30,329 nucleotides of DNA from a virus: the IMG/VR virus record IMGVR_UViG_3300027279_000178, positions 1-30,329 of that record. One strand, written 5' to 3'. The position numbers and the translations under genes were made by a program. The notes under the pieces were generated by a model. The model saw only the letters and a program-made list of their open reading frames with translations. It did no database searches and was not told the DNA's origin. Shown piece by piece: positions 20,239-21,911 of the stretch (within the stretch, counting starts at the first letter, position 1; every line of letters begins with the position of its first letter).

Positions 20239-20469
20239 CTAACCTCTCCGCACCTCCACAAGCTCATCCAAGGACACGGGCCGCCCCAGGATGACCTCCA
20301 GGGCGCACTTGATGCGGGCGATGGTTTGGAGATCGGGGATGCTTTTCCCTTTTGCGGCTCGGTGTAAGCCTGTGTAGTTAACTCCGGACACCTGGGAAAT
20401 CCTATACAACGAAACGCCTTCTTGCCTTAGCAGTCGTAGAAAGGGGCCAAGATCGGGCCTGCAGTCCAT
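20239..20469 (-). CDS. Second XRE-family repressor
   Basis: This 76-residue protein consists almost only of a helix-turn-helix: FLRLLRQEGVSLYRISQVSG, VNYTGLHRAAKGKSIPDLQT, then IARIKCALEVILG. It diverges from the antirepressor-like operon and probably represses it. Its message looks leaderless: a -10 TAAAGT (20481-20476) stands six bases before ATG 20469, the TANNNT-N6-ATG arrangement known from Deinococcota, and there is no ribosome site. It is a second, separate immunity-type regulator besides the S24 repressor. Confidence 0.75.
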   Translation of the reverse strand: MDCRPDLGPFLRLLRQEGVSLYRISQVSGVNYTGLHRAAKGKSIPDLQTIARIKCALEVILGRPVSLDELVEVRRG

Positions 20470-20602: not shown

Positions 20603-20863
20603 ATGCACGATAGCACGAAGGCTATACCACCGGCAACCGAGGCTTTTTGGAAGGAGGCGCCGTTCCAGGGGCCTCCGGCGGAGGCGTTCCTCTGGAACCG
20701 CTTGGCTCCCTACCTGGAGGCCCTTTGGGCTTCCGCCCGGGCCGGGGACTGGAGCGCCTTTGTGGACGGGGCCTACCAGGTTTACCTGGCCGGGCTTCTG
20801 GACGCAGGCCTTCCCTTGGCGGCCCTTCTGGCCGTGGATGAGGAGGCGGAAGATGACCAGTGA
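20603..20863 (+). CDS. Unknown small protein upstream of the antirepressor
   Basis: This 86-residue acidic protein has an excellent ribosome site (GGAGGT, five bases before ATG 20603) and a strong promoter, so it is probably well expressed when derepressed. The sequence is helical with many Trp and Ala residues: PPAEAFLWNRLAPYLEALWA, GDWSAFVDGAYQVYLAGLLD, then AALLAVDEEAEDDQ. No family is recognised. Its 3' end overlaps the antirepressor start by 11 bases, implying joint production. Confidence 0.7.
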   Translation: MHDSTKAIPPATEAFWKEAPFQGPPAEAFLWNRLAPYLEALWASARAGDWSAFVDGAYQVYLAGLLDAGLPLAALLAVDEEAEDDQ

Positions 20864-21263
20864 GGCCAAGGTCATCCGGTTGAAGAGCCTGCACACTCCC
20901 GCGGGTTCCCTGCCTGTGGCGTGGGTGGAGGTTGCGGGGCGTAAAGACCTGGCCGTTCCGCTGGCCCGCTTGGCCGAGGTAGTAGAGTACGACTTGAGGG
21001 CCTTGCGTAGGTTGGTGGATCGCGATCTAGTCCTTCGGGACTTACAGAAGGTCGTAACGACGCTCTCGGGGAACTTGAAACGCACCCAGACTTATCTCCT
21101 TCGCCCCGGGGTCTTGGGGGTGCTTGTGAAGATTTCCACCTCCCGCATCCAGGACCTCGCCAAGCGGGAGCGGATAATAGCCTTCCAGCGCTGGGCCTTT
21201 GAGGCCCTGGACCGGCTCCTCTTTGAGGAGTTTGCCCCGGTCCGTTACGACTCCTCGGACTGA
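20853..21263 (+). CDS. Phage antirepressor-like protein (P22 AR N-terminal type)
   Basis: This 136-residue protein reads as a P22_AR_N-like antirepressor domain: VAWVEVAGRKDLAVPLARLAE, VVEYDLRALRRLVDRDLVLR, then the KRTQTYLLRPGVLGVLVKIST block and RERIIAFQRWAFEALDRLLFEE. Antirepressors of this kind bind and inactivate phage repressors to induce lytic growth. ATG 20853 has GGAGG upstream. The last residues, VRYDSSD and stop, are written by what looks like the end of an inserted element (see 21240-21290), so the protein may have lost a longer C-terminus. Its targets, the S24 repressor or another prophage's repressor, are unknown. Confidence 0.7.
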   Translation: MTSEAKVIRLKSLHTPAGSLPVAWVEVAGRKDLAVPLARLAEVVEYDLRALRRLVDRDLVLRDLQKVVTTLSGNLKRTQTYLLRPGVLGVLVKISTSRIQDLAKRERIIAFQRWAFEALDRLLFEEFAPVRYDSSD

Positions 21264-21389
21264 AGTCCAAGGCTTCTCGGTTCTCACGGAACGGCTACTG
21301 CCGTATCCATCCCCGAAGGCTCCGTCCGAGCCCAGGAACAACCTTGACTCCGTATCGGCAGGCGAGCGCAATGCTTCTAGCTCTGCCAC
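21240..21389 (-). mobile_element. Probable relic of an IS200/IS605-type (TnpB) right end
   Basis: On the minus strand the segment ends with AAGCCTTGGACT, TC, AGTCCGAGGAGT (about 21269-21246), a hairpin of the style found at the right ends of TnpB-bearing elements, followed by GTAAC. The frame running into it reads DTESRLFLGSDGAFGDGYG and EKPWTSVRG, like the variable TnpB C-terminus that overlaps such ends. No TnpB catalytic core or zinc finger remains upstream, where this frame soon meets a stop. The end overlaps the antirepressor stop codon. Confidence 0.45.
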
Positions 21390-21680
21390 GGGTGTTCGTT
21401 TGGAGTTTTACCCATCGGACTACCCGATGGAACCCCCTACTCCAAGTTTCAAGGTGCACGGGGAACGCTGTCCCCAAGAGGATTTTACCACACATCCGCC
21501 GCTCACTATGCTATGTCCGCCACCGGCGGACGTGGGGGAGTCCATGTATCCCCGGTTTGAAAACCGGGGGATTATAAGTGCCCATGCATTAAACTATCCA
21601 CATGCCTGCCCCCCTTTCGCCAACCCCTCTTCCCTTCCGCCCCCGCCAAGTTTAAGGGGGATCGGGCCACGGCGGCCGCC
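21390..21680. other. Hairpin-rich non-coding segment
   Basis: No gene is supported here. Four hairpins stand in about 160 bases: CCATCGG/CCGATGG (near 21413-21431), GGGGA/TCCCC (near 21460-21475), GTCCGCC/GGCGGAC with a 3-base loop (near 21510-21526) and CCCCGGTTT/AAACCGGGG (21550-21569). On the minus strand TATAAT (21576-21571) adjoins the last. The segment is less GC-rich than its surroundings. It may be the rest of the inserted element or a structured RNA. Confidence 0.5.
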
Positions 21681-21911
21681 ATGCTTACAGGAGATGTGCG
21701 TAGGCGGGACGGGAGCCTATACAGCTACAGCGAGATCGCGCAGATTACCGGAGTGCCCGGGACTACCCTTCGCAGGATGGCTGACCGCCTGGGCGTGCGG
21801 CACCTTCGCCGTCCCCCGGCCCTGCCCACTCCTGCCAAGACTTCCGATGCCGAGCTCCTGAGGCTTCTGACAGATGTCCTCAATAAGTTGTACTTGCACC
21901 TAGCCCGGTGA
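21681..21911 (+). CDS. Small helix-turn-helix protein before the right late operon
   Basis: This 76-residue basic protein has a helix-turn-helix of resolvase or MarR-like type: DGSLYSYSEIAQITGVPGTT, LRRMADRLGVRHLRR, then a Pro-rich linker and a C-terminal helix (DAELLRLLTDVLNKLYLHLA). It lies just before late promoter C and could be a late-gene activator, the role of Mu C, which is inference from position alone. The start is uncertain: ATG 21681 lacks a ribosome site, and GTG 21696 has AGGAG but too close. Confidence 0.55.
   Translation: MLTGDVRRRDGSLYSYSEIAQITGVPGTTLRRMADRLGVRHLRRPPALPTPAKTSDAELLRLLTDVLNKLYLHLAR

Follow-up and report, generated by a model that had tools for sequence, protein, structure and literature searches.

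A gene-less IS200/IS605 family of Thermaceae and their phages, one copy of which splits an antirepressor-like gene, and its putative standalone omega-RNA

Palindrome-associated transposable elements (PATEs) are derived from IS605 (PMC3119063) and have also been described in PMC7290912. In the accessible parts of these accounts (for structure and movement, PMC3119063), PATEs resemble the family described here in several respects: absence of a transposase gene, IS605-type subterminal palindromes, lack of target duplication and movement in trans. They differ in that PATEs consist of ends fused after deletion of the core, whereas the present family holds a covarying 142-nt module that does not come from a coding core. 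The reRNA (omega-RNA) of ISDra2, as presented in the accessible text of PMC8612924, runs through the right end into the flank, which acts as the guide, and the target motif equals the left-end flank; both features are found or expected here. The ISDra2 RNA overlaps the 3′ end of tnpB, whereas our element has no tnpB and carries a separate 5′ module before the scaffold, and its use by TnpB is putative.

HEARO (RF02033), the structured RNA of IscB elements, likewise belongs to an IS605-superfamily element and occurs partly in the same bacterial family: with E ≤ 1, 7 of 50 Thermaceae genomes gave a match, six of them above the cut-off. It is a different RNA from the module, and its copies adjoin RRXRR (IscB-type) frames. 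An origin of the module from HEARO/IscB was considered and rejected, as the window has no RF02033 match and no clear sequence similarity. Phage P22 encodes sar, an RNA reading against the antirepressor gene; in the present case a mobile element supplies the RNA, and the gene it would read against is disrupted.

In the literature on TnpB and non-autonomous IS605 elements, no title or opening of an abstract dealt with this element; that search covered few subscription papers. The 2023 work of Meers and colleagues on TnpB and the selfish spread of IS605 elements may have covered the guide RNAs of non-autonomous elements already. For Thermus, the accessible text of a mobilome study mentions IS605 copies and the use of MITE-Hunter and names no IS605 MITE (PMC6352166), and Thermus phages with tnpB next to CRISPR-like arrays are reported in the accessible part of PMC11437467.

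An IS605-type insertion in an antirepressor-like gene

The window, i.e. the whole stretch of DNA analysed, is the IMG/VR virus record IMGVR_UViG_3300027279_000178 (30,329 nt), whose region 21240-21580 was read on both strands. An earlier note had placed a series of hairpins and an IS605-like end in this region. The element is real but larger: a non-autonomous IS200/IS605 element of ∼376 bp on the minus strand (21244-21619, boundaries uncertain by ∼2 nt), with its right end set by alignment to relatives and its left end by comparison with the relatives' TTAG|AGAAAAG. The minus-strand right-end hairpin (21253-21272; CCTTGGACTTCAGTCCGAGG; helix 11, with compensatory changes) contains the antirepressor stop codon (TGA, 21261-21263), just as the note had observed. 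Further minus-strand hairpins run from it up to the left-end hairpin; this series, also noticed earlier, keeps its pairing with covariation in relatives.

In a blastn search of phage and plasmid records, two blocks of the window that lie apart (∼21243-21333 and 21491-21576) matched Thermus elements. Elements in T. brockianus plasmids and phage TSP4 have tnpB between both blocks, and for a T. parvatiensis plasmid the match was confined to the right-end block. The right-end block is an omega-RNA-like scaffold (21244-21333, minus strand), with the same block present in TnpB-encoding relatives. The left-end block (21491-21576, minus strand), delimited by matches to relatives, includes a hairpin and a TATAAT (21576-21571), while the outer left end (21577-21619, minus strand) has diverged from the GTGGGGGAGC arm seen in relatives. 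A scan for consensus sigma-70 promoters listed TGGATA-18-TATAAT at 21600-21571, in the left end. The minus-strand TATAAT pointed out earlier is present, but it belongs to the family-wide left end; the box suitably placed to drive the RNA is a TAAAAT at 21487-21482. TnpB was absent from the 30,329-base window (best tblastn E 5.9), and the two frames scanned inside the element contained no Pfam domain.

On the plus strand, the N-terminal half of the antirepressor-like gene occupies 20853-21243 (its ORF, which together with homolog alignment defines it, extends to 21263). Residues 1-130 are encoded by the phage; the protein leaves the sequence of its homologs at FAPV, and the remainder, RYDSSD and the stop, is supplied by the right end of the element. 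The C-terminal half, located by alignment with uninterrupted homologs, lies at 21621-21911 (plus strand) and includes a small frame at 21681-21911. The name antirepressor is tentative because the P22_AR_N matches of both the 136-aa window protein (E 0.0035) and an intact homolog (E 0.00048) fall below the Pfam cut-off. The query for this protein (P0001) found no relative in viral contigs, phages or plasmids; the Thermaceae genomes gave seven matches in 6 of 50 genomes, in open frames 182 to 310 codons long. The uninterrupted homologs, whose presence in relatives the earlier note had proposed to look for, are ∼250-290 aa long, and six of the seven matches (the exception being a short one, L185) extend further, their C-terminal part aligning with window 21621-21911 (QPLFPSAPAKFKGDRA...). 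Removal of 378 bases and joining of the flanks restores the frame (V|Q); the TTAG rule (see below) predicts 376, and the difference probably reflects a small indel or a shifted boundary. Judged from these alignments, the element is an insertion that has split the phage antirepressor-like gene. The gene was earlier described as truncated: it is indeed disrupted, yet not merely shortened, given that its C-terminal half is still in the window.

At one of the homologous loci (L181), the DNA after the homolog resembles, by eye, the next gene of the window, an M23 peptidase. A small frame at 20239-20469 (minus strand), helix-turn-helix repressor-like with weak family matches only, is directed away from the antirepressor operon, and the arrangement has a lysogeny-switch-like layout.

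Family members, parent element and target site

Copies of the element are numerous. The right-end pattern occurred in 87 stretches of genome contigs and five of viral contigs; a search with the whole element gave matches in all eight chosen genomes or records. A search with the 135-nt module by itself was positive in 16 of 50 Thermaceae genomes (E ≤ 1e-6). Its model R1 detected it in 22 of 111 Deinococcota genomes, with 22 matches in Thermus scotoductus DSM 8553; the window and the viral contigs L020, L023, L026 and L272 were matched as well. Near-complete copies are present in Thermus scotoductus, T. altitudinis, Meiothermus sp. KatS3mg071, M. rufus and one IMG/VR contig. A short type, seen in phage phiLo (L006) and T. 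parvatiensis (L127), has the left end, TATAAT and scaffold only; three other copies (L012, L132 and L141) keep part of the module. Even in the shortest copies a −10 box is retained immediately upstream of the scaffold. By ends and internal blocks, the window element is a member of a multi-copy non-autonomous IS200/IS605 family in Thermaceae, bacteria of hot springs, and their phages. The earlier reading of a decayed non-autonomous remnant holds as to non-autonomy, but the element is more than a leftover: it belongs to a family of many copies that has a conserved RNA module of its own.

None of the 70 listed module hits had tnpB inside the element. A piece of TnpB lies 1.9 kb from the module at L100, and a TnpB of a different kind near L149/L124 (two views of one place). 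Derivation of the module from TnpB-coding sequence was rejected, there being no TnpB match inside the element among these 70 hits.

In phage phiLo (MH673673; L006, L010 and L012-L019), the same IS family is represented by full or partial TnpB elements (at least three) and by short copies without genes (three). A search of viral contigs with a module-core pattern returned 12 stretches; the already known L023 and L272 carry the module, and the other ten had no model match. In the viral contig L272 (IMGVR_UViG_3300044960_000421, 151-1031), a module element is followed by a C-terminal TnpB fragment and a second right end, which looks as if elements were nested. Plasmid pMESIL01 of Allomeiothermus silvanus (L149, 1686-1847, minus strand) has a degraded module between a TnpB right end and a CRISPR-array-like stretch.

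The earlier note had suspected a TnpB-type IS605 end, and comparison with Thermus ends bore this out: the left and right ends of the family are common to TnpB elements and to a TnpA-TnpB element of T. parvatiensis (L241), in which the order is same left end, TnpA, TnpB, same right end. Of 50 Thermaceae genomes, 20 yielded a Y1 TnpA; none was detected in the other 30 (drafts), some of which carry modules (e.g. G028, G004 and G023).

The bases preceding 42 distinct left ends read T (98%), T (95%), A (95%) and G (83%), and 115 distinct right-end flanks showed no consensus. The joined flanks of the T. parvatiensis short copy L127 were used as a 129-nt query, whose first 32 letters, foreign to the locus, were covered by no listed match. 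Matches were obtained in 24 of 50 genomes, one being the occupied genome itself; in all four that were aligned out of the other 23, TTAG runs directly into the right flank with the element absent. The family thus inserts 3′ of TTAG without target duplication. The window copy does not follow this rule exactly: its left flank is TTGG, and its diverged left end lacks the arm of its relatives. The antirepressor DNA just outside its right end (window 21207-21243, minus strand) is predicted to form a hairpin of −21.1 kcal/mol, which would hold the run-off guide. This copy is probably immobile and a poor guide.

These features of the window copy, immobile in appearance and with an occluded guide, agree with a passive PATE- or MITE-like element, in which TnpA needs nothing but the ends, and the RNA-like interior is a hitchhiker copied with them that does nothing as RNA. 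Gene-less IS605-derived elements of this sort are described in the accessible part of PMC3119063, and recent spread of one master copy would explain the high identity of the T. scotoductus copies. We nevertheless regard the passive reading as rather unlikely, since the module shows compensatory changes across divergent copies, as do the scaffold helices, and the module is reused with three right-end types.

A conserved RNA fold upstream of the right end

A structured RNA module of 142 nt (21341-21482, minus strand) was delimited by its match to model R1 (177.4 bits, the window itself being in the training set) and by covariation. Directly upstream is a −10-like box, TAAAAT (21482-21487, minus strand), recognized in alignment A1; many relatives have TATAAT or TACAAT in its place, and the sigma-70 consensus scan did not list the window's box. 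Stems P2 and P3 with the internal loop AGGGGGUU/GUAAA span 21396-21453 (minus strand), and the closing stem P1 abuts the scaffold.

The RNA of the window folds better than its shuffled versions (z −2.84; 1 of 200 shuffles as good), and the fold is more than chance because relatives show conserved pairing with covariation. Four alignments were used: A1 (25 rows, out of 31 distinct complete copies) and A2 (27 rows, out of 35 distinct modules), both leaving out near-duplicates, L116 and the broken L162 and L149; A3, all 17 distinct strings retrieved by an anchor pattern (blind to copies whose anchors are altered); and A4, 21 chosen sources. RNAalifold produced for A1 a structure of 62 pairs with 97.7% of cells paired; 46 cells were changed on both sides versus 14.9 (sd 3.7) in shuffles. 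Further pair types were not above shuffles (29 versus 29.1). Among the 17 sequences covering P2/P3, which include divergent copies from Calidithermus, Meiothermus and one viral contig, 8 of 11 pairs were double-changed (37 cells versus 8.9, sd 3.0, in shuffles), further pair types were unexceptional (117 of 500 shuffles) and the internal loop was nearly invariant. Fitting A4 to the model, a procedure that favours the structure, gave 25 double-changed pairs of 41. Since shuffling leaves relatedness in place, none of these comparisons is a probability.

As to the transcribed strand, the A1 module has no clear preference (18 G-U versus 16 A-C cells), while the A1 scaffold does show one (17 versus 4); for the module elsewhere, A3 gave 10 versus 3 and the fitted A4 39 versus 7. 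Beyond the terminal hairpin, tnpB-less copies retain the scaffold, in the same forms as copies with tnpB; part of its covariation may stem from an ancestry in different TnpB elements.

The module is not tied to one scaffold, as it is joined to three right-end types: L026 combines module and family left end with another right-end type, and L224 has a third type, resembling the A. silvanus TnpB end (both judged by eye). In Rfam nothing credible was found for the module, either at gathering threshold (whole window and 12 loci) or at permissive thresholds (element, L050, L062 and L272/L224/L222). Conservation of the module, its almost invariant internal loop, its different right ends and its absence from Rfam would also suit an independent regulatory or catalytic RNA, acting e.g. 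on TnpA/TnpB expression or on the host, with the scaffold only an end. We find such a role improbable, as the module always stands upstream of an IS605 right end in the complete copies examined and P1 abuts the scaffold.

In contig L026 (IMGVR_UViG_3300045107_000622), the stretch 4724-4895 matches Rfam HgcC (RF00062) above cut-off (57.9 bits). Its sequence resembles the right end of an IS605 element and lies 17 bases past a weak TnpB-like match; the HgcC family could be an omega-RNA as well.

A putative guide RNA supplied without protein genes

The element is a gene-less IS605-family transposon of Thermaceae that has split the antirepressor-like gene; we consider it probable that it relies on TnpA in trans for movement and specifies a standalone omega-RNA for use, likewise in trans, by TnpB. 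The sequence comparisons establish the insertion, the family with its ends and target, and the conserved fold; transcription of the RNA, its use by TnpB and retention through cleavage are postulated on the precedent of ISDra2, as set out in the accessible part of PMC8612924. TnpA supplied in trans would move the family. Transcription would start from the −10 box and proceed through the right end into flanking DNA; by analogy, this would yield a standalone omega-RNA with a flank-directed guide at its 3′ end. With this guide, a resident TnpB acting in trans might cut the empty site, so that the element would be kept in the population. The module would serve as a 5′ domain that stabilizes, processes or regulates the ORF-free RNA. 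The RNA has the scaffold with a terminal hairpin and the flank-derived guide position expected of an omega-RNA, its use by TnpB being putative; we do not call it an ordinary omega-RNA because the element has no tnpB and hence no overlap with a tnpB 3′ end.

The candidate guide position, adjoining the right end, is 21228-21243 (minus strand, antisense to the antirepressor gene), with the length of ∼16 nt taken from ISDra2 (PMC8612924, accessible part). An omega-RNA-like guide pointing into the phage, a further suggestion of the earlier note, is compatible with this geometry: the scaffold ends where the guide would begin, and the antirepressor sequence there is antisense. The note's other suggestion, a sar-like RNA regulating the antirepressor, shares the prediction that the RNA would run antisense into the gene; only the run-off 3′ end is antisense, the RNA arrives with a mobile element whose other examined copies have unrelated flanks, and the adjoining gene is disrupted, so that we judge such regulation very improbable.

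More tentatively, the family could represent a new class of protein-free mobile guide-RNA genes, in which a conserved 5′ domain is combined with at least three omega-RNA-like right ends and both TnpA and TnpB are borrowed; this broader proposal we put forward as a possibility rather than an expectation.

The insertion, by splitting the antirepressor-like gene, may change the lysis-lysogeny choice of the phage. The RNA domain described here is a structured domain absent from Rfam. If the proposed mechanism is true, the family would spread through Thermaceae and their phages and enjoy TnpB-guided retention at target sites derived from its flanks. It offers a concrete test case of whether TnpB-type nucleases serve RNA-only elements. 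Should the RNA work in trans, selfish RNA-only parasites of RNA-guided nucleases would exist, and guide RNAs would be mobilisable apart from the nuclease gene, which bears on the origins of Cas12-like systems.
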